Positions 1 through 64,000 of a stretch of DNA of 64,000 bases are shown one piece after another. Location of the stretch: contig OY253669.1 of assembly GCA_958009085.1 (NCBI GenBank), positions 1,712,542 through 1,776,541 on the forward strand, in the 5' to 3' direction. Under the pieces are notes generated by a model, which was given only the letters and a program-made list of their open reading frames with translations, did no database searches and was not told the DNA's origin. Both the position numbers and the translations under genes were made by a program. Source of the stretch: Protoeuglena noctilucae. Its lineage: Eukaryota > Chlorophyta > Pedinophyceae > Marsupiomonadales > Marsupiomonadaceae. The first letter of the stretch is position 1, and every line of letters begins with the position of its first letter.

Positions 1-1944
1 GCCCAACGTTGCCCCGGCCCCCCAGCGCCTGCGGACAAACAGGGAGCCAGGCTCAGATGCGCAAGGCGCGCCATGAAGGGGCTGTCGGCGGCACGCTCGC
101 GAGCCCCAGTCGCCTGATTGATGAGGTTGTTCCCGGACGCCCCGCCAGCGAGCGCGTTGATCTGGCCGACCGCCCCGGAACCGGCCCCATTGTTGCCCAC
201 GGCCTGGGAGCCACGGCGTTGGAGATGGCGGGTCAGGTCACGGCGCCGCGGTGCCAGGAAGCCGAGCAGCCCTGCGCATGGCTCAGGGCGCACAGCAGCA
301 GGCGGGCGGGCACTGGAGAGGGTGCCGAGTCGCTGCGACCGCACCTGGTTGATGAGGTTGTTGCCGCCGCCGGTGCCCGTGCCCGTCTTCTTGGGGTCGG
401 TGCTGCCGGAGCCGCCACCCTGCTGTGCGTTGGTCTGGGCAACGGGTGCGCCGCTCGACCCGCCAGAGCCGCTCCCGGAGCCGCTGCCCGACCCCACTCC
501 CGCGCCGCGCACGACCTGCATTACGTGAGCGCGGTGCTGGCTGTCTTGTGACCCTGGCCCAGACGCCCGCGCGGTTGTCTGTGCCGGCACCCACACACGA
601 CGCGCTGGCTCAGCGTGGCACCTGGTTGATGAGGTTGTTGCCACCAGCCCCAGCGCCCGTCTTCTTGGGGTCGGTGGTGCCGGTCCCGCCACCCGCCAGC
701 GCGTTGATCTGCCCCACGGCTCCCAGCCCAAACCCATTGCCCACGGCCTGCGAAACGAAGCTCTGGATCCCGCCTTCAGCATGCATGCCATGCACGGGGT
801 CAGACAGGGGCAACTCCGTGGTCTCCACTGTGTGAAGCCACGGCACTCGCCCGCCTCGACCCATGACATGGCATGCTGGCCGCGGTCGCATGTTGCTGCT
901 GGGGGCGGCGACGCTGGCTCAGCGCGGCACCTGGTTGATGAGGTTGTTGCCACCAGCCCCGGCGCCCGTCTTCTTGGGGTCGGTGGTGCCGTTCCCGCCC
1001 GCCAGCGCGTTGATCTGCCCGATGGGTGCGCCGAACAGGCCGCCCACGACCTGCACCGCACGAACGGCCAGCGGGGCCTCATGCAGCATGCGATGCCGCT
1101 GCCGGCGCCAGAGCTCATGCGCCGAGAGCAGCCTCGACGTACCTGGTTGATGAGGTTGTTGCCACCAGCACCATTTGGTGCCGGGGCCGGGGGCACCTTC
1201 GGAGTCGGAGAGCTCTTGGGCGTGGGCGAGCTCTTGGGCGTGGGCGAGCTCTTGGGCGTGGGCGAGCTCTTGGGCGTGGGCGAGCTCTTGGGCGTGGGAC
1301 CCTGCGCCAGCCGCCGGCTCCTCACGGCCTGCGAGGGGCACGTTACATCACATCCCTGAGGATCCAGGCTCCCGGAGAGTAAGGGATGGTTGCTCCCGCA
1401 GTCGAGGTGTACAGCCCTGGGGGCTTTGTGCATCAGCCATGCATGGAAAGGTCGCAGGCACAGCGCCGGGCCCCAGCAGCACCGGCATGCACGGTGCATC
1501 CCGCCGCAGCTGCTCCGCGTCACCTGCTCCCCGAGGTCGACCTCAATGTCCGGGAAGGCACCGGAGACCGCCGATAGCTGCCGAGGCTGCAGGGCCTGCG
1601 GGGCATGACCACGGAAACTCGGGGTATGGATCCAGGCCAGGATGCGAGGCCAGCGGCTCACCGCAGCTCCCTAGCCCGCTTGAAGTGTGCGTGGAGGGTG
1701 CCGGGCCTCGGCATGGGCATCGATGCACCGGCGGACCGCACAGAAGCCATACACTCACCTGATCATGCGGGAGGATGTTTGCTTGGGCTGCGGGCACGGG
1801 GGAGAGGGGAGGGCATGTCGATGGCAGAATGTGCTTTGCACACCTCGTGGAATGCGGGGCCGTGCTGGAGGACTCACCGGCCGCCCGCGATGCGCTGACC
1901 GCGAGCAGCAGCAGGGCTGCCACAGTGCAGATGGCCTTCTGCAT
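1..1944 (-). CDS. Secreted [13 protein letters not shown]-module protein, copy A (3' end outside window)
   Basis: Exons on the minus strand at 1944-1878, 1787-1759, 1595-1524, 1328-1143, 1050-931, 747-622, 515-345, 203-114 and 28-1; the last is cut by the window edge. It mirrors copy C at 13735-15719 (coordinates sum to 15679) with only a few differences. The first exon encodes a signal peptide (MQKAICTVAALLLLAVSAS, then RAAG). A Lys/Ser/Pro spacer of repeated PTPKSS follows, then phase-0 exons each carrying one module: a GQINALAGG core, usually a TDPKKTG linker, and an ending GNNLINQ at the donor. The intron after exon 8 begins with GC. Exported structural role is inferred from signal peptide and composition. 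No family recognised. Confidence 0.8.
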
Positions 1945-1984
1945 GTCCGCGTCGCGACGTGGGATGCGGAGGGACCGTGTGTGC

Positions 1985-2040
1985 GGAAATGATGTCACCA
2001 GTGCACACTTAAGCTCATGGCAGCTATGACGTCACTGCAC
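1985..2040 (-). promoter_or_regulatory. Promoter of copy A with CRE/bZIP-like sites
   Basis: Mirror of the region upstream of copy C. A perfect TGACGTCA lies at 2027-2034 and a TGACATCA variant at 1990-1997, 45-90 bases before the start codon. TGACGTCA is the palindromic CRE bound by bZIP factors; binding here is inferred. Confidence 0.5.
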
Positions 2041-2555
2041 ACGCAGCGGCAGCGCTGCCATGTGGAGGTAGCATGGCGCAGCCAACCATGGCTCGCTGCA
2101 GCGACGGCAGGCCGCGCCGGGGCCGAGCTGCGGGTCAACGCATCGGGACGTTATCAAGAGGCGCGACGGGCACGGTGGCTCTCGCATGCCGGCGTGGGAG
2201 GAGTCGGACGAAGGTGCCGCTGGCGCCATCTCCCGGCAGTCTTCCGCGCCGCGCATGCGACACAGAAACGGAGGTCGCCTTGGCGATCTGCTCGAGATGC
2301 TCAGTCGCTATGGTTGGCGGTGGCTCCGGGGGCCGCTTGGGCGGGCCGAGCCGTGCACTTGCTGGTCAGGTCGTGGCAGCAGGTCCAGCAGCAACGGGCC
2401 TTACGGGCGCAGTGATGGCATCACTGGTGGCTTAGCTATTATTAAGCCGTTAGGGCTGCGAGTACCGGGCTGAGCACCGCGCCTGCTCCATTGCCGGAGC
2501 CAGCGCTGCATTCAAACACTTCACTCGTCTGCGGCGCTGACAGCCATACAGAATC

Positions 2556-8698: not shown

Positions 8699-8885
8699 TT
8701 CCTCCGTGAGCTCGTCGGCGCCCCGCTGTGGCAGGCGCAAGCCGCAGCGGAGGCTGCAGTGGGACCCATGCCAGCCCACTGCACGCCGTGCCTGCGCTCC
8801 CATGCAAGCGACGTCACCGTGGGAGTGACGTCATGCGATTTTGGGGCTTAAAAGCCAGGTGAGGGGCCTCTCCCAGGCAGAGTTC
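8699..8885 (+). promoter_or_regulatory. Promoter of gene B with paired CRE-like sites, shared with gene D
   Basis: Almost identical to 16208-16394 (offset 7509). Contains a GACGTCAC half-palindrome near 8810, a perfect TGACGTCA at 8826-8833 and a TATA-like cttaaaag at about 8847-8854, ~70 bases before the start codon. The rest of the 355-base gap after IFT38 holds that gene's 3' UTR, with TGTAA at about 8586. Confidence 0.6.
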
Positions 8886-8923: not shown

Positions 8924-11900
8924 ATGGGAGCTCGTCGCCGCGGCGTCGCTGCGGCGGCGTTGATTATCGCCGCGGGCCTCTTCTCGCAGACTCTGGCCTG
9001 GGCGCCGTCCTGCCTCGACCATGCGGCCGGCCACAAGTGCCTGTACCAGGTGCAGAGAGTGCATGCAGCTTGCTTTGTGGCAGATGGCTGCGCGCGCGCT
9101 CCGTAAGCCACGGCGAGATTCGGGTCCGCATCCCAACACTGATGCCAAAGTTGGCAACATTGCCGCAAACCAAACAATAATTACAACAATAATTCCGCTT
9201 TGCAGGCCGGGGGCATCGTGACGGATGTCCATGCGCTGGCGGGATCGACCTTGACCAGCCAGGCCATCGTCGGCCGGCGGCTGGCAGATGACAGAACCCC
9301 CAGCCCGCCTCCGCCGAGCCCTCCGGGACCGCCGGGCCCCACCGGTCCCTCTGGTCCCCCCGGTCCGCCTGGTCCGCCTGGTCCGACGAGCCCCCCGGGT
9401 CCGCCAGGCCCCACTGGTCCCTCCGGTCCCCCCGGTCCGTCGGGTCCGCCGAGCCCCCCGGGTCCGCCGGGACCCAGCGGTCCTGAAGGGCCCCCTGGTC
9501 CGTCTGGTCCGCCGAGCCCCCCGGGTCCGCCGGGACCCAGCGGTCCTGAAGGGCCCCCTGGTCCGTCTGGTCCGCCGAGCCCCCCAGGTCCACCGGGCCC
9601 CAGCGGTCCTCCCGGCCCCAGCGGCCCCTCCGGTCCTGAAGGCCCCCCAGGTCCGTCGGGTCCGCCGAGCCCCCCGGGTCCGCCGGGACCCAGCGGTCCT
9701 GAAGGGCCCCCTGGTCCGTCTGGTCCGCCGAGCCCCCCAGGTCCGCCGGGCCCCAGCGGTCCTCCTGGCCCCAGCGGGCCCTCCGGTCCCGAGGGCCCCC
9801 CTGGTCCGTCGGGTCCGCCGAGCCCCCCGGGTCCGCCGGGACCCAGCGGTCCTGAAGGGCCCCCTGGTCCGTCTGGTCCGCCGAGCCCCCCAGGTCCGCC
9901 GGGCCCCAGCGGTCCTGAAGGGCCCCCTGGTCCGTCTGGTCCGCCGAGCCCCCCAGGTCCGCCGGGCCCCAGCGGTCCTCCTGGCCCCAGCGGCCCCTCC
10001 GGTCCCGAGGGCCCCCCTGGTCCATCTGGTCCGCCGAGCCCCCCGGGTCCGCCGGGCCCCAGCGGTCCTCCCGGCCCCAGTGGGCCCTCCGGTCCCGAGG
10101 GCCCCCCTGGTCCATCGGGTCCGCCGAGCCCCCCGGGTCCTCCAGGCCCCAGCGGCCCGTCCGGTCCCCCTGGCCCCTCTGGTCCCTCCGGTCCCGAGGG
10201 CCCCCCTGGTCCATCTGGTCCGCCGAGCCCCCCGGGTCCTCCTGGCCCCAGCGGCCCGTCCGGTCCCCCTGGCCCCAGCGGTCCCTCTGGTCCTCCGGGC
10301 CCCAGCGGCCCGTCTGGCCCCGAGGGCCCCCCTGGTCCGTCGGGTCCGCCAAGCCCCCCAGGTCCGCCGGGCCCCAGTGGCCCTTCTGGCCCCCCGGGCC
10401 CTACTGGCCCTTCTGGTCCTCCAGGCCCTGGTGGCCCCTCCGGTCCCGGAGGGCCCCCTGGTCCGTCTGGTCCGCCGAGCCCCCCTGGCCCGTCGGGTCC
10501 CTCCGGCCCACCGAGCCCGCCGGGTCCGCCTGGTCCGTCGGGTCCTTCCGGGCCCCCTGGTCCGCCTGGTTCCCCGAGCCCCCCAGGTCCCCCGGGTCCA
10601 CCTGGCCCGGCCGGTCCCCCGAGCCCTCCGGGTCCGCCGGGTCCTGGCGGCCCCTCCGGTCCCCCGGGCCCCAGTGGTCCCTCCGGTCCCCCGGGTCCCA
10701 GCGGCCCCTCCGGTCCTCCCGGCCCCGGCGGCCCCACGGGCCCGTCGGGTCCGCCGAGCCCCCCGGGTCCCCCGGGCCCTCCTGGTCCGTCTGGTCCGCC
10801 TAGCCCCCCGGGCCCTCCCGGCCCCCCTGGCCCGTCGGGTCCTTCTGGTCCCCCGAGCCCGCCGGGTCCCCCGGGCCCCTCCGGTCCCGAAGGGCCCCCT
10901 GGTCCGTCGGGTCCTCCGAGCCCCCCAGGTCCCCCGGGTCCACCTGGCCCGGCCGGCCCCCCGAGCCCCCCGGGTCCGCCGGGTCCTGGCGGCCCCTCCG
11001 GTCCCCCGGGCCCCAGTGGTCCCTCCGGTTCCCCGGGTCCCAGCGGTCCCTCCGGTCCTCCTGGCCCTGGCGGCCCCACGGGCCCGTCGGGTCCGCCGAG
11101 CCCCCCCGGCCCTCCAGGCCCCACGGGCCCCACGGGCCCTACCGGTCCTCCGGGCCCCACTGGTCCGTCGAGCCCTCCGGGTCCTCCGGGCCCCACGGGT
11201 CCGACGGGCCCCACAGGTCCCTCCGGCCCACCGAGTCCCCCCGGCCCCTCCGGTCCCCCGGGTCCCAACGGTCCTCCGGGCCCGTCCGGTCCCAACGGCC
11301 CGCCCGGTCCGTCGGGCCCGACTGGCCCCAACGGTCCCCCTGGCCCCACGGGCCCCACGGGCCCGACGAGTCCCCCGGGTCCCACGGGCCCCCCCGGCCC
11401 CACTGGTCCGTCTGGTCCGACCGGGCCCTCTGGGCCTAACGGTCCCCCGGGTCCCTCTGGTCCCAACGGCCCCCCAGGTCCCAACGGGCCCTCGGGTCCC
11501 TCGGGCCCACCCGGCCCCAACGGTCCCAACGGTCCCAACGGTCCCCCCGGCCCCACGGGCCCCTCGGGTCCTACGGGCCCCAGCGGTCCGTCGGGTCCCT
11601 CGGGTCCCAACGGCCCTCCGGGTCCCTCGGGTCCCAACGGCCCCGCCGGCCCCCCCGGCCCCACGGGTCCGACGGGCCCCGCGAGCCCCCCTGGTCCTCC
11701 GGGTCCCCCGGGTCCCCCTGGCCCTCCCGGTCCGACCCCTCCGCCCCCTCCGCCGACCCCGACTCCCAAGACCCCCCCGGGCCCCAAGAGCCCCCCCAAG
11801 AACCCGCCCGCCCCTGCCCCTGGCGGCAACAACCTCATCAACCAGGTACGGATGCGGAGGCTCTGGATGTCGCCGAGCTTCATCGCGCCTTGACTGCCGC

Positions 11901-13099
11901 GGTGCACCTGTGCTGACACACCGCACGCTGCCGACGCAGGCTGTGGGTGGCGGCGGCGCTGGCGGCGCTGCTGTCGGTCAGATCAACGCGCTGGCGGGTG
12001 GCGGGACCGGCACCACCGACCCCAAGAAGACGGGCGCCGGGGCTGGCGGCAACAACCCCATCAACCAGGTGAGGGTGCAGGGCGCGCCGCTGTATTTGCA
12101 CCTGGCAGCCTGGCTGGCTCGCGGCCCTGTCAGAGGCACGCGGCATCTTCTCGCGTTGCTCTCAGGCCGTGGGAGCGGGATCGTCTGGCTCTGGCACGGG
12201 CTCCGGCATCGTCGCGCAGATCAACGCGCTGACGGGTGGCGGGGCCGGTGGCGGCAACAACCTGATCAACCAGGTGCGGTGACGTCTACAGGGGGCCTGC
12301 TGGGTACAGGGGGCCTGCTGGGCAAAGGATGTGCTGCAGCTGTGCATGCGTGGCGCGCTGTGCGACTTGATAATGCGCTGTGCCGGAGTCTGCGCCGCTG
12401 CGATCGTCAATTGGAGGCCCCGGCTGTCCTCGCCCATGCAGGCCGTGCCGGGCTCGGGCTCGGGCACTGGCTCGGGCACTGGCTCTGGCTCTGGCTCTGG
12501 CTCGGGCACTGGCTCGGGCACTGGCTCTGGCTCTGGCTCTGGATCTGGCTCGGGCTCGGGCTCGGGCTCGGGCTCTGGCTCTGGCTCCGGCTCTGGCGGC
12601 GCTCCTGTCGGTCAGATCAACGCGCTGGCGGGCGGCTCCGGCACCACCGACCCCAAGAAGACGGGCGCCGGGGCTGGCGGCAACAACCTCATCAACCAGG
12701 TGCGCGCGCAAGGCGTGGCGGTGCGTGGATGCTGGATGCTGGATGCTGCCGCTGGCCGCGTGCCTTGCTGCAGAGCGCTGGTAGCGTGGCTAGAGGTGTC
12801 GAGGAGCATCGACCGCGTCGCTATGCTTGTGTGGTGCAGGCCGTGGGCGGCTCGGGCGGCGGAGCTGTCGGGCAGATCAACGCGCTGGCCGGCGGCGGCG
12901 GCGGCGGCAACAAGCTCATCAACCAGGTGCGTGCGGCGTGACGGGTGCTGACGGGCCGCGATGCTGTCCGTTGCGGCCCCGTGGTGGTGACCCGTCGCGT
13001 GCCAAGCGCCCGCAGGCTTTGGGCGGTGGCTTCGGGCTGGGTGCCATCGGCCAGATCAACGCGCTGGCAGGCTTGGGTGGCCGGCGGCTGGCCGCGTAG
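8924..13099 (+). CDS. Secreted collagen-like [13 protein letters not shown]-module protein (gene B)
   Basis: Seven phase-0 exons: 8924-9049, 9206-11845, 11940-12068, 12166-12273, 12442-12699, 12840-12926 and 13016-13099, giving 1143 residues. The first exon encodes a signal peptide ([18 protein letters not shown], then [12 protein letters not shown]). The 880-codon second exon is a long Gly-Pro-X domain and ends NNLINQ at the donor. Five module exons follow; exon 5 carries a (GS)n/(GT)n linker before its GQINALAGG core, and the last ends [16 protein letters not shown] and stop. The 3' part, introns included, is nearly identical to gene D. Likely a secreted, proline-hydroxylated matrix or wall protein; this is inferred from composition. 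No enzyme domain. Collagen-like triplets are convincing, the modules unclassified. Confidence 0.85.
9289..11750 (+). repeat. Gly-Pro-X tandem repeat (collagen-like coding repeat)
   Basis: Roughly 820 codons of Gly-Pro-X triplets, X mostly Ser, Pro, Thr, Asn or Glu. Gly is replaced by Ser at regular places, giving [13 protein letters not shown]. In the first half the unit is about 21-27 residues (63-81 bases); the second half shifts to GPTGPT and GPNGP. The repeat opens long false reading frames on both strands. Confidence 0.9.
12613..13091 (+). repeat. Tract shared by genes B and D (copy in B)
   Basis: About 480 bases including two introns, matching 16995-17473 at a constant offset of 4382 with no indels. 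Intron identity means recent duplication or gene conversion. Confidence 0.85.
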
Positions 13100-13317
13100 C
13101 AAGCTGGTCTCCTCTAGAGTGCAACTAATCTTCTAGCTAGCACTTGATATTAGAGAGTGCACTGTCCTCGACTTAGAGAGTCTTGGAATGAGTTAGTACA
13201 CTAGCCACTGGCTCGCCTTCTGCCTCGCCCTTTCTACTGCTGCTCGTCACTACGACTGTTAACGCATGAGACGCGCGCTAGCCTGTGCAAGGGCGACGTG
13301 ACGCATGTGGGCCCCCG
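13100..13317. other. Gene B 3' UTR and gap before the inverted repeat
   Basis: AT-richer stretch with repeated CTAG-containing words (tctagctag, cactagccac). Comparable words follow gene D. No gene seen. Confidence 0.5.
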
Positions 13318-15678
13318 CAGGTGCACGGCTCGGCCCGCCCAGGCGGCCCCCGGAGCCACCGCCAACCATAGCGACTGAGCATCTCGAGCAGATCGCCAAG
13401 GCGACCTCCGTTTCTGTGTCGCATGCGCGGCGCGGAAGACTGCCGGGAGATGGCGCCAGCGGCACCTTCGTCCGACTCCTCCCACGCCGGCATGCGAGAG
13501 CCACCGTGCCCGTCGCGCCTCTTGATAACGTCCCGATGCGTTGACCCGCAGCTCGGCCCCGGCGCGGCCTGCCGTCGCTGCAGCGAGCCATGGTTGGCTG
13601 CGCCATGCTACCTCCACATGGCAGCGCTGCCGCTGCGTGTGCAGTGACGTCATAGCTGCCATGAGCTTAAGTGTGCACTGGTGACATCATTTCCGCACAC
13701 ACGGTCCCTCCGCATCCCACGTCGCGACGCGGACATGCAGAAGGCCATCTGCACTGTGGCAGCCCTGCTGCTGCTCGCGGTCAGCGCATCGCGGGCGGCC
13801 GGTGAGTCCTCCAGCACGGCCCCGCATTCCACGAGGTGTGCAAAGCACATTCTGCCATCGACATGCCCTCCCCTCTCCCCCGTGCCCGCAGCCCAAGCAA
13901 ACATCCTCCCGCATGATCAGGTGAGTGTATGGCTTCTGTGCGGTCCGCCGGTGCATCGATGCCCATGCCGAGGCCCGGCACCCTCCACGCACACTTCAAG
14001 CGGGCTAGGGAGCTGCGGTGAGCCGCTGGCCTCGCATCCTGGCCTGGATCCATACCCCGAGTTTCCGTGGTCATGCCCCGCAGGCCCTGCAGCCTCGGCA
14101 GCTATCGGCGGTCTCCGGTGCCTTCCCGGACATTGAGGTCGACCTCGGGGAGCAGGTGACGCGGAGCAGCTGCGGCGGGATGCACCGTGCATGCCGGTGC
14201 TGCTGGGGCCCGGCGCTGTGCCTGCGACCTTTCCATGCATGGCTGATGCACAAAGCCCCCAGGGCTGTACACCTCGACTGCGGGAGCAACCATCCCTTAC
14301 TCTCCGGGAGCCTGGATCCTCAGGGATGTGATGTAACGTGCCCCTCGCAGGCCGTGAGGAGCCGGCGGCTGGCGCAGGGTCCCACGCCCAAGAGCTCGCC
14401 CACGCCCAAGAGCTCGCCCACGCCCAAGAGCTCGCCCACGCCCAAGAGCTCGCCCACGCCCAAGAGCTCTCCGACTCCGAAGGTGCCCCCGGCCCCGGCA
14501 CCAAATGGTGCTGGTGGCAACAACCTCATCAACCAGGTACGTCGAGGCTGCTCTCGGCGCATGAGCTCTGGCGCCGGCAGCGGCATCGCATGCTGCATGA
14601 GGCCCCGCTGGCCGTTCGTGCGGTGCAGGTCGTGGGCGGCCTGTTCGGCGCACCCATCGGGCAGATCAACGCGCTGGCGGGCGGGAACGGCACCACCGAC
14701 CCCAAGAAGACGGGCGCCGGGGCTGGTGGCAACAACCTCATCAACCAGGTGCCGCGCTGAGCCAGCGTCGCCGCCCCCAGCAGCAACATGCGACCGCGGC
14801 CAGCATGCCATGTCATGGGTCGAGGCGGGCGAGTGCCGTGGCTTCACACAGTGGAGACCACGGAGTTGCCCCTGTCTGACCCCGTGCATGGCATGCATGC
14901 TGAAGGCGGGATCCAGAGCTTCGTTTCGCAGGCCGTGGGCAATGGGTTTGGGCTGGGAGCCGTGGGGCAGATCAACGCGCTGGCGGGTGGCGGGACCGGC
15001 ACCACCGACCCCAAGAAGACGGGCGCTGGGGCTGGTGGCAACAACCTCATCAACCAGGTGCCACGCTGAGCCAGCGCGTCGTGTGTGGGTGCCGGCACAG
15101 ACAACCGCGCGGGCGTCTGGGCCAGGGTCACAAGACAGCCAGCACCGCGCTCACGTAATGCAGGTCGTGCGCGGCGCGGGAGTGGGGTCGGGCAGCGGCT
15201 CCGGGAGCGGCTCTGGCGGGTCGAGCGGCGCACCCGTTGCCCAGACCAACGCACAGCAGGGTGGCGGCTCCGGCAGCACCGACCCCAAGAAGACGGGCAC
15301 GGGCACCGGCGGCGGCAACAACCTCATCAACCAGGTGCGGTCGCAGCGACTCGGCACCCTCTCCAGTGCCCGCCCGCCTGCTGCTGTGCGCCCTGAGCCA
15401 TGCGCAGGGCTGCTCGGCTTCTTGGCACCGCGGCGCCGTGACCTGACCCGCCATCTCCAACGCCGTGGCTCCCAGGCCGTGGGCAACAATGGGGCCGGTT
15501 CCGGGGCGGTCGGCCAGATCAACGCGCTCGCTGGCGGGGCGTCCGGGAACAACCTCATCAATCAGGCGACTGGGGCTCGCGAGCGTGCCGCCGACAGCCC
15601 CTTCATGGCGCGCCTTGCGCATCTGAGCCTGGTTCCCTGTTTGTCCGCAGGCGCTGGGGGGCCGGGGCAACGTTGGGC
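13318..15678. repeat. Right arm of 2.36 kb near-identical inverted repeat
   Basis: Reverse complement of 1-2361. The arms lie about 10.96 kb apart, with the promoters of copies A and C facing inward, so the segment between could invert by recombination. Confidence 0.93.
13640..13695 (+). promoter_or_regulatory. Promoter of copy C with CRE/bZIP-like sites
   Basis: Perfect TGACGTCA at 13645-13652 and variant TGACATCA at 13682-13689, 45-90 bases before the start codon, with a gagcttaag TATA-like word between them near 13663. Confidence 0.5.
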
Positions 15679-15719
15679 AGATCAACGCCCTGGCCGGCGG
15701 CAGGAGGCTGGCTGCCTGA
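13735..15719 (+). CDS. Secreted [13 protein letters not shown]-module protein, copy C
   Basis: Nine exons: 13735-13801, 13892-13920, 14084-14155, 14351-14536, 14629-14748, 14932-15057, 15164-15334, 15476-15565, 15651-15719; 309 residues. Signal peptide in exon 1. Exon 4 carries about five PTPKSS repeats encoded by an 18-base repeat, then NNLINQ. Exons 5-8 are modules of 30-57 residues (GQINALAGG core, TDPKKTG linker, GNNLINQ end); exon 7 is divergent, with AQTNAQQGG in place of the core, and exon 8 lacks the linker. Exon 9 ends [14 protein letters not shown] and stop, as in B and D, which supports the GC donor (gcgact) used after exon 8. Module exons are phase 0 at both ends, so units can be gained or lost without frameshift. 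Confidence 0.85.
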
Positions 15720-16207
15720 CGCACAGCCAGCAGACGAGAGAGCATGGCACCGGAGCCACCATAGCACTTGCATGACACCTGACGTAGCGGTCTGTTCCTG
15801 GCGCTAGATGTCCACTAGACCCTAGGGCAGTGCCACTGCCGGTGGTTCAAGGTGCCTAGTGTCGACAGCCAAAGGCAGCGCGCTACTGCGCTTTCCGACA
15901 CCCCCCGGGCACCGCAACCTGCTACTTGTCCGCCGCCCTTGATTCCCATCCCGGGAAAGCATCGCGGACTCCTGCTGCTTTCGCTCACAGCACGTAACCG
16001 GGCTCTGGCATTTCGTCCCGCCCTCTTCCTCCTCTCCACCGTCTGGTCCGTCGGGGCGTCCATCGACGGGCCCTCCCGCTCCGCCTTCGATCTCAAGTTC
16101 CGCCAGCGGCGGAGTTCCTGGACGAGGCCTCCACGGACATCCCCGGCCTGCCCCACCGAAAAGCTTTCGCGAGCGGGGCTTTCCTTACTGCCATAGGGTT
16201 GCGATGG
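15720..16207. other. Intergenic region between copies C and D
   Basis: About 490 bases. No coding or RNA feature recognised; the gene D promoter repeat begins at 16208. Confidence 0.5.
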
Positions 16208-16394
16208 ATCCTCCGTGAGCTCGTCGGCGCCCCGCTGTGGCAGGCGCAAGCCGCAGCGGAGGCTGCAGTGGGACCCATGCCAGCCCACTGCACGCCGTGC
16301 CTGCGCTCCCATGCAGGCGACGTCACCGTGGGAGTGACGTCATGCGATTTTGGGGCTTAAAAGCCAGGTGAGGGGCCTCTCCCAGGCATAGTTC
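16208..16394 (+). promoter_or_regulatory. Promoter of gene D, near-identical to that of gene B
   Basis: Two substitutions seen relative to 8699-8885. TGACGTCA at 16335-16342, a second GACGTCAC just upstream, and cttaaaag at about 16356-16363. Confidence 0.6.
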
Positions 16395-16432
16395 GGGCCG
16401 TCCCCGGCTGTGAACAGAGCCTTTTGCTTTGC

Positions 16433-17481
16433 ATGGGGGCTCGTCGCCGCGGCGTCGCGACGGCGGCGGTGATCGTCGCAGCGGGTCTCTTCTCGCAGGC
16501 CCTGGCCTGGGCGCCGTCCTGCCTCGACTACGCGGCTGGCCTGTACGACGGAGGGTGCGGGTATCTCGGCTCTGTGGACCCAAGTGTCCTGTATGCCGAC
16601 TGCCCGTCTCTGCGTGGGCCGCTTGGCGCCTGCGGGTACACGGGCGGCACTAACGCTGGATCCGGGGGCACTGGCACGGGCAGCGGCGGCAGCGGCCAGA
16701 CGAATGCGCAGTCGGGCTCTCCTTCGCCATCGCCCACTTCCGCCCCTACGCCTACCTCTGCGCCCCTGGCACCTCCTGTGGCGCAGATCAATGCTCTCGC
16801 AGGCTCTGGCGCCGGCCTTGGCGGCAACAACCTGATTAATCAGGTGAGGGAGTCTGCACATGGCCGGCGCGCCCCCCGCACAAGCGTAGCACGTGTTGGG
16901 CCCTGCCGCATGCAGAGCACCTGGGCTTCCCCTCTCGCCTCCTCAGGCAGTGACTGGGTCCGGCAGCGGCGGCAGCGGGTCGGGCGTCGTCGCGCAGATC
17001 AATGCGCTGGCGGGCGGCTCCGGCACCACCGACCCCAAGAAGACGGGCGCCGGGGCTGGCGGCAACAACCTCATCAACCAGGTGCGCGCGCAAGGCGTGG
17101 CGGTGCGTGGATGCTGGATGCTGGATGCTGCCGCTGGCCGCGTGCCTTGCTGCAGAGCGCTGGTAGCGTGGCTAGAGGTGTCGAGGAGCATCGACCGCGT
17201 CGCTATGCTTGTGTGGTGCAGGCCGTGGGCGGCTCGGGCGGCGGAGCTGTCGGGCAGATCAACGCGCTGGCCGGCGGCGGCGGCGGCGGCAACAAGCTCA
17301 TCAACCAGGTGCGTGCGGCGTGACGGGTGCTGACGGGCCGCGATGCTGTCCGTTGCGGCCCCGTGGTGGTGACCCGTCGCGTGCCAAGCGCCCGCAGGCT
17401 TTGGGCGGTGGCTTCGGGCTGGGTGCCATCGGCCAGATCAACGCGCTGGCAGGCTTGGGTGGCCGGCGGCTGGCGGCCTAG
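16433..17481 (+). CDS. Secreted [13 protein letters not shown]-module protein (gene D)
   Basis: Four phase-0 exons (16433-16843, 16947-17081, 17222-17308, 17398-17481) give 238 residues. The signal peptide and following APSCLDYAAG resemble gene B. A Cys-containing segment follows (GGCGYLGSV, YADCPSLRGPLGACGY; three Cys after the one in the signal region), then Gly/Ser/Thr and SPSPTSAPTPTS spacers and a short module ending NNLINQ. Exons 2-4 are modules; the last ends LGGRRLAA. From about 16995 on it matches gene B. The collagen-like domain of B is absent, so B and D differ mainly in spacer. Secretion is a firm prediction, function unknown. Confidence 0.85.
16995..17473 (+). repeat. Tract shared by genes B and D (copy in D)
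   Basis: Counterpart of 12613-13091. The genes diverge again just before the stop codon (ctggccgcgtag in B, ctggcggcctag in D). Confidence 0.85.
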
Positions 17482-63753: not shown

Positions 63754-64000
63754 GGTAGGTTAGGTTTAGGTCATTAGGGTAGGTTTTTAGGGTTAGGGTT
63801 AGGTTAGGGTAGGGTTAGGGTTAGGGTTAGGGTTAGGGTTAGGGTTAGGGTTAGGGTTAGGGTTAGGGTTAGGGTTAGGGTTAGGGTTAGGGTTAGGGTT
63901 AGGGTTAGGGTTAGGGTTAGGGTTAGGGTTAGGGTTAGGGTTAGGGTTAGGGTTAGGGTTAGGGTTAGGGTTAGGGTTAGGGTTAGGGTTAGGGTTAGGG
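63749..64000 (+). repeat. Telomere, (TTAGGG)n
   Basis: Degenerate variants (ttaggg mixed with taggg, tttaggt and tttttaggg) from 63749 to about 63805, then uninterrupted TTAGGG repeats to the window end. G-rich strand 5' to 3' toward the edge identifies the right chromosome end. No subtelomeric satellite separates it from the last gene. Confidence 0.97.

Follow-up and report, generated by a model that had tools for sequence, protein, structure and literature searches.

We analysed a window of 64,000 nucleotides from Protoeuglena noctilucae (contig OY253669.1), corresponding to C2:1712542-1776541 in a searched genome of 26.3 Mb and 26 contigs, which carries a cluster of genes for predicted repeat proteins. 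The repeat unit of these proteins consists of two alternating half-modules, GQIN-ALAGG and NNLINQ-AVGG, with Gly-rich loops of variable length between them. Three genes on the plus strand (A1, gene C2 and D3) and one inverted copy on the minus strand splice to secreted-looking, module-bearing predicted proteins, and the predicted splicing of A1, C2 and D3 leaves no internal stops. The original prediction, made from the letters of this DNA, had proposed four genes sharing a module; all four are present, the fourth being an inverted copy of gene C2, and the module cores, the TDPKKTG linker, GNNLINQ at the donor and the RRLAA ends were each found in place.

Genes and features of the cluster

The features are listed with their window coordinates. 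Module exons are taken from the gene models and the intron survey, and terminal half-module exons from the gene models.

8924..13099, plus strand: gene A1, 7 exons, 1143 amino acids (aa); signal-like N-terminus, GRRLADD, ~811 aa of (G/S)-P-X triplets, 4 full modules, terminal half-module
9206..11845, plus strand: A1 exon 2, with GRRLADD, the collagen-like (G/S)PX tract, a lysine/proline linker and GGNNLINQ (from Pfam, triplet counts and translation)
11940..12068, plus strand: A1 module exon
12166..12273, plus strand: A1 module exon
12442..12699, plus strand: A1 module exon with a long GS-rich lead
12840..12926, plus strand: A1 module exon, GNKLINQ version
13016..13099, plus strand: A1 terminal half-module exon, GRRLAA and stop
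13735..15719, plus strand: gene C2, 9 exons, 309 aa; signal-like N-terminus, RQLSAV and SRRLAQG, PTPKSS repeats, modules, terminal half-module with GGRRLAA
14629..14748, plus strand: gene C2 module exon
14932..15057, plus strand: gene C2 module exon
15164..15334, plus strand: gene C2 module exon with a GS lead, AQTNAQQGGG variant
15476..15565, plus strand: gene C2 module exon, followed by an intron with a GC donor
15651..15719, plus strand: gene C2 terminal half-module exon, GGRRLAA and stop
16433..17481, plus strand: gene D3, 4 exons, 238 aa; SPSPTS linker, 3 modules, RRLAA terminal half-module
1..1944, minus strand: inverted copy of gene C2, with its ATG at 1944 and the last 41 coding bases left of the window start; exons 1944-1878, 1787-1759, 1595-1524, 1328-1143, 1050-931, 747-622, 515-345, 203-114 and 28-1

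Gene C2 and its inverted copy encode an identical predicted protein; their DNA, aligned over 2573 bases, shows 6 differences and 3 gap positions. A near-perfect inverted repeat of ~2.4 kb comprises window positions 1-2365 and 13314-15678 and runs on into locus L001. D3 and A1 end almost alike, with 99.0% identity over the 3' 494 bases of D3.

The module is combined with different spacers, as had been proposed: the gene models confirm variable spacers next to a constant module, behind N-termini that resemble signal peptides by eye. Pro-rich spacers occur only in A1 (SPP), in gene C2 and its copy (PTPKSS) and in D3 (SPSPTS), the other members being without one. The A1 tract comprises ~270 (G/S)-P-X triplets, in which the 271 first positions are occupied by G in 241 cases, S in 28 and P in 2, and Pro fills 267 of 270 second positions. 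Pfam Collagen matches A1, given as its first 199 aa, above the cut-off (3.6e-16, 59.1 bits, cut-off 27.2). The triplet tract resembles collagen-like proteins but differs from them in the substitution of Ser for Gly at 28 of the 271 first positions and in the near-constant Pro at the second.

Half-modules, introns and paralogues

Alternation of NNLINQ-like and QINA-like motifs was counted in 11 motif-bearing proteins, excluding the two inverted copies, and extends over 64 loops, 32 of which run in one direction (9-57 residues) and 32 in the other (6-21 residues). The sole break occurs in D3, with two consecutive QxNA motifs; the motif pattern used for this count misses QINS of C15b. In an alignment of 16 modules, the shortest units are 27 aa long, and Q, N, A, G, G, N, N and Q are invariant. 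The two half-modules resemble one another and an intermediate, QINQAVGG, occurs in P0125, a protein encoded in another genome (see below), from which we infer that the module arose through half-module duplication.

The positions of the introns follow the same subdivision. The survey covered 11 gene models, excluding both inverted copies and C15e, and counted 52 introns, 40 of which coincide with a half-module border, in one of three positions. Twenty-one follow the NQ of NNLINQ-like motifs in phase 0 (20 at N[NK]x[IV]NQ and 1 at TNAVNQ), 16 interrupt the N of QIN-like motifs in phase 2, and 3 are phase-0 introns between GQ and IN. The other introns comprise 9 in phase 1 that close the signal-peptide exon and 3 in phase 0 near the N-termini, likewise after Gln. 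All 52 acceptors are CAG, with 48 GT and 4 GC donors. Twelve of the 16 phase-2 introns come from C12a-c, three genes that are near-copies, so that the counts are not independent of each other.

Half-module borders are thus marked by intron position throughout the family. The claim that the module is encoded by exons is supported by the gene models, with the refinement that two half-modules describe it better than one unit. The narrower claim, that each module is one exon between phase-0 introns, holds for A1, C2 and D3, where 13 phase-0 introns directly follow N[NK]xINQ, whereas the C12 genes have phase-2 introns inside the N of QIN and there are C15 genes with additional introns between Q and IN or within the N of QIN; the C2 cluster and most of C15d are the only parts of the family in which introns at NNLINQ are regularly in phase 0. 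Similarly, a terminal half-module followed by RRLAA, predicted for every complete gene, is confined to the C2-cluster proteins. A1, C2 and D3 all end in QINALAG..RRLAA-stop, whereas the C-termini in the other clusters are AGRRG, AGRRGFY, INQAL, INQAV or others.

Across the whole genome, a degenerate DNA pattern for GNNx[IV]NQ has 42 sites, all within three clusters on contigs C2 (16), C12 (11) and C15 (15), and the reversed control pattern has none. The QINA pattern is less specific, with 70 sites compared to 18 for its reverse; 28 of these belong to the C2 and C15 clusters, the other 42 lying outside them, and the one outside site that was looked at (C12:104741) reads QINAHLVDELG and belongs to no module. 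A protein search of the genome returned 19 matches at E<=10, of which 18 lie within the C2 and C15 clusters. A weak match beyond the clusters is located at C1:837388 (E 0.32, 33% identity).

We modelled 14 genes, 4 in the C2 cluster, 3 in the C12 cluster (C12a, C12b and C12c) and 7 in the C15 cluster (C15a, C15b and its inverted copy, C15c, C15d, C15e and C15f), and found the motifs in 13 of them. Every cluster contains near-identical copies: inverted pairs in C2 and in C15 (2396 bases, 100% identity), and C12 genes that are 97-98% identical. C12b corresponds to C12a minus one module, and C12c has one extra module and a different 3' end. The gene without motifs, C15c (L006 4866-5368), is a C15a paralogue with the same signal exon that is Gly-Tyr rich and ends right before a GT, possibly a former donor. 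In C15e (L007 ~2660, minus strand) the start-codon position reads ACG in an otherwise intact signal-like exon, indicating either a non-AUG start or a dead copy. A run of 200 N lies at L003 9518-9717, close to the C12 cluster.

Relatives of the module

The original prediction knew of no named family with this pattern, and the profile searches for known domain families agree. The 16 modules matched no family in Pfam at E<=1 and none in NCBIfam, and the module had no match among PDB sequences at E<=10. When seven family proteins (A1 as its first 199 aa) were compared with Pfam, the module was again unmatched, and the sole matches reported were Collagen and, below threshold, Inositol_P in A1, plus PARP (E 0.13) in gene C2; no pherophorin or other wall domain was found in these seven. 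The Inositol_P match covers the A1 N-terminus (window 8924-9271; E 0.0017, 18.3 bits, cut-off 27), the first part of which is shared by D3. A genome search with Inositol_P gave 12 matches, from which the A1 N-terminus was absent, leaving this assignment unproven.

A search of 5.8 billion proteins gave 10 matches at E<=1 among the 7991 best word-sharing candidates, and another search gave 4 at this threshold among 230 candidates, all of these 4 being open-frame fragments of the same gene set. The same applies to 9 of the 10 matches, three of which are exact over at least 77/78, 89/90 and 78/84 residues and six over their whole length; five of the nine are linked to 'ena' contigs. In P0125 (E 1.5e-5), which is encoded on a 3,024-base contig of another genome, both halves of the module flank an unrelated acidic linker; its best match in the present genome has an E of 0.19, and it shares no exact stretch longer than 12 residues with the fetched loci. 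As P0125 carries both half-modules, this one sequence suggests that the family is not limited to the genome studied here.

In viral and prokaryote collections, 20 and 112 stretches, respectively, fitted the patterns, and none was confirmed as a relative. With a degenerate GGNN[LF]INQ pattern, 4 viral and 39 prokaryote stretches were obtained, which we take as chance occurrences because none of the 43 has Q[IV]NA nearby. The strings NNLINQ, QINALAGG and INALAGGG were not found in papers of the literature collection searched, word searches returned nothing about the module family as judged by title and start of abstract, and the available part of a review on the green algal matrix contains neither 'glycine-rich' nor 'amyloid' (PMC10762512). 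As far as these searches go, no relative with a name exists, and the family appears to be lineage-restricted; its module would be new, but the type of low-complexity extracellular protein that contains it is familiar.

Probable secretion, possible assembly and chromosomal setting

We interpret the proteins as probably structural and secreted to the cell surface or into the extracellular matrix, where they would form part of the coat of a green alga. In their high Gly content (27-40% in the seven arrays counted) they agree with the class of glycine-rich secreted structural proteins, which is defined by composition; their N-termini look hydrophobic by eye. They share with plant and algal glycine-rich proteins and with pherophorin-type hydroxyproline-rich glycoproteins (HRGPs) a signal-like N-terminus, low-complexity Gly/Pro-rich spacers and a likely extracellular structural role, but differ from them in having conserved alternating half-modules with introns at their borders.

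The N-terminal exon of the modelled genes appears signal-like by eye, and in 9 of 10 distinct N-termini an R-x-L motif precedes the repeats (GRRLADD, SRRLAQ, SRTLLQ, GRQLAQ, GRKLNW, TRRLAQ, GRRLNY, GRALNW, GRQLTA). Shuffling of the segment from residue 22 to the first motif or residue 75, with C12a representing the three C12 genes, yielded a mean of 1.74 and a maximum of 6 in 5000 trials, none of which reached 9. This enrichment suggests a propeptide that is cut at R-x-L. For diatoms, an RXL motif has been put forward as a potential site of proteolysis (PMC9650480). Here the motif lies between the signal-like segment and the repeats, a likeness to diatom frustule proteins, while the host differs in being a green alga, as indicated by a CP26-type light-harvesting protein in the genome. 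Over its whole length this protein matches PDB 6kac_S best, although the multi-domain LHCI chain 9vfj_11 scores slightly higher, and the genome contains 21 chlorophyll a/b-binding matches, counted per exon. We take 6kac_S to be from Chlamydomonas and the matched CP26 chains to be green-algal and plant. Together with the TTAGGG repeats at the window end, the CP26-like protein points to a green alga, perhaps a core chlorophyte. The kynureninase-HAAO fusion reported for Prasinoderma coloniale was not found: TIGR01814 had no match in the genome, although 9 of 14 controls were detected (2 of them over the cut-off), and PF06052 had none either, with no control detected, which makes this alga a less likely source.

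The precursor would consist of a signal peptide and a short propeptide ending at R-x-L, where a protease probably frees the mature chain, followed by an optional spacer (collagen/HRGP-like, PTPKSS, SPSPTS or Gly-Tyr) and then by an array of alternating GQINALAGG and NNLINQAVGG half-modules joined by flexible Gly-rich loops. The half-modules may act as conserved 'stickers', with loops and linkers as freely varied 'spacers' that tune length, charge and chemistry, so that copies on the same chain and on different chains could associate through common stickers; self-association via the half-modules is plausible. Since introns lie at the half-module borders and near-identical paralogues are one module apart, the arrays may grow and shrink by recombination.

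Several points weigh against this interpretation. The signal peptide calls rest on judging hydrophobic N-termini by eye; the N-terminal segment of D3 has no R-x-L; and the motif was chosen post hoc, after the sequences had been viewed. Between C12a and C12c, 16 of 473 aligned exon sites and 15 of 597 intron sites differ, i.e. the exons of these recent copies show no sign of stronger constraint. AlphaFold models of P0122, a 93-aa unspliced read-through piece, had a mean predicted local distance difference test score (pLDDT) of 55.7 alone and 50.8 with ten rows, with low confidence and no strand either time. Finally, a low-complexity secreted protein need not be structural and may instead be soluble or adhesive.

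A stronger form of the structural interpretation, which had been raised in the original prediction as beta-stacking, is that the arrays build beta-arch fibres resembling functional amyloids, each half-module forming a short strand, the Gly loops the turns, and the N/Q residues ladders as in curli. We regard this form as possible but hold it tentatively. Two conserved stretches of N/Q and aliphatic residues, their alternation, the variable Gly loops and the half-module ends in the C2-cluster genes fit such an architecture, as they do the curli protein CsgA, which also has Asn/Gln-rich tandem two-motif repeats, loop insertions and half-repeat ends; this likeness is one of working principle only. 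Pfam includes a curlin model, which was unmatched by the 16 modules at E<=1, and nothing relevant was found in the seven proteins. Curli repeats average 23 aa, compared to 27 aa for the shortest units here, with Gln/Asn ladders, tolerated loop insertions and occasional half-repeat ends, and the curlin kernel is N-$-Psi-$-Psi-$-Q (PMC10192328). By eye, neither NNLINQAV nor GQINALA fits this kernel, so the family is no member of curli, from which it also differs in its eukaryotic introns, its longer and more variable loops and the lack of a detectable sequence relation, in line with the missing Pfam and PDB matches. The strandless AlphaFold models count against beta-arches as well, but because the pieces were unsuitable, not being spliced tandem modules, they neither support nor exclude beta-stacking; the Gly content of the arrays would also fit disorder.

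Extending the fibre reading, the proteins might represent a hitherto undescribed eukaryotic class of extracellular proteins that self-assemble, with intron-bordered half-modules serving as interchangeable strand stickers and gain or loss of whole modules and loops editing fibre length and chemistry, an intron-built counterpart of bacterial functional amyloids in logic, not in descent. We consider this extension rather unlikely as it stands.

Alternatively, the proteins could be disordered glycine-rich wall proteins that are covalently cross-linked, through di-tyrosine in the GY-rich members and Gln-Lys bonds in those with TDPKKTG, the conserved Gln being the acceptor. Tyr makes up 5-17% of the C12a, C15b and C15f arrays, Gln is conserved at both half-module borders and the TDPKKTG linker provides Lys; but Tyr is absent from the C2, D3 and C15d arrays, and Lys amounts to 0-1% in the five C12/C15 arrays counted. 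Moreover, Transglut_core had no match in the genome, although it was detected in 10 of 14 controls (intron-split genes can escape), and cross-linking of this kind seems unlikely. Equally improbable is a role as adhesive or mating/flagellar-surface proteins, with sticky modules presented on a variable stalk. The long, rod-like (G/S)PX tract of A1 would be suited to such a stalk, and paralogues are clustered, near-identical copies included, but most members have no stalk, and the Pfam comparison of the seven proteins revealed neither a lectin nor any other adhesion domain. Neutral expansion of a GC-rich repeat without protein function, which would fit the low complexity, the tandem DNA, the near-identical copies and the lack of excess constraint in C12a and C12c exons, is very improbable, given that frame, splice sites, signal-like N-termini and R-x-L are retained across diverged genes and that P0125, in another genome, retains both half-modules around an unrelated linker.

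The structural interpretation makes the family a source of concrete coat-protein candidates for a small green alga. With three versions of intron position in one family and paralogues one module apart, it also offers a compact natural experiment on the construction of secreted repeat proteins. If the arrays do self-assemble, they would serve as small building blocks that are poor in cysteine, low in charge and joined by tunable linkers.

Upstream of the family genes of the window, a palindromic box recurs at the following positions:

2027..2034, plus strand: TGACGTCA palindrome, 90 bp upstream of the inverted gene C2 copy
8826..8833, plus strand: TGACGTCA box, 98 bp upstream of the A1 ATG
13645..13652, plus strand: TGACGTCA box, 90 bp upstream of the gene C2 ATG
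16335..16342, plus strand: TGACGTCA box, 98 bp upstream of the D3 ATG

These are the only four in the window, each 90-98 bp 5' of a family gene, compared to an expected 0.86, and none of 100 shuffles contained four. Because the A1 and D3 promoters are near-identical (98.5% over 201 bases) and gene C2 and its inverse are copies, the sites represent two independent contexts at most. None of the 8 C12/C15 genes looked at has the box at 90-98 bp; C12b has one at 323. At its other end, the window closes in TTAGGG telomere-type repeats (63814-64000), which coincide with the contig end and are unlike TTTAGGG, the usual plant telomere repeat; the gene cluster is therefore placed ~46-64 kb from a probable chromosome end.

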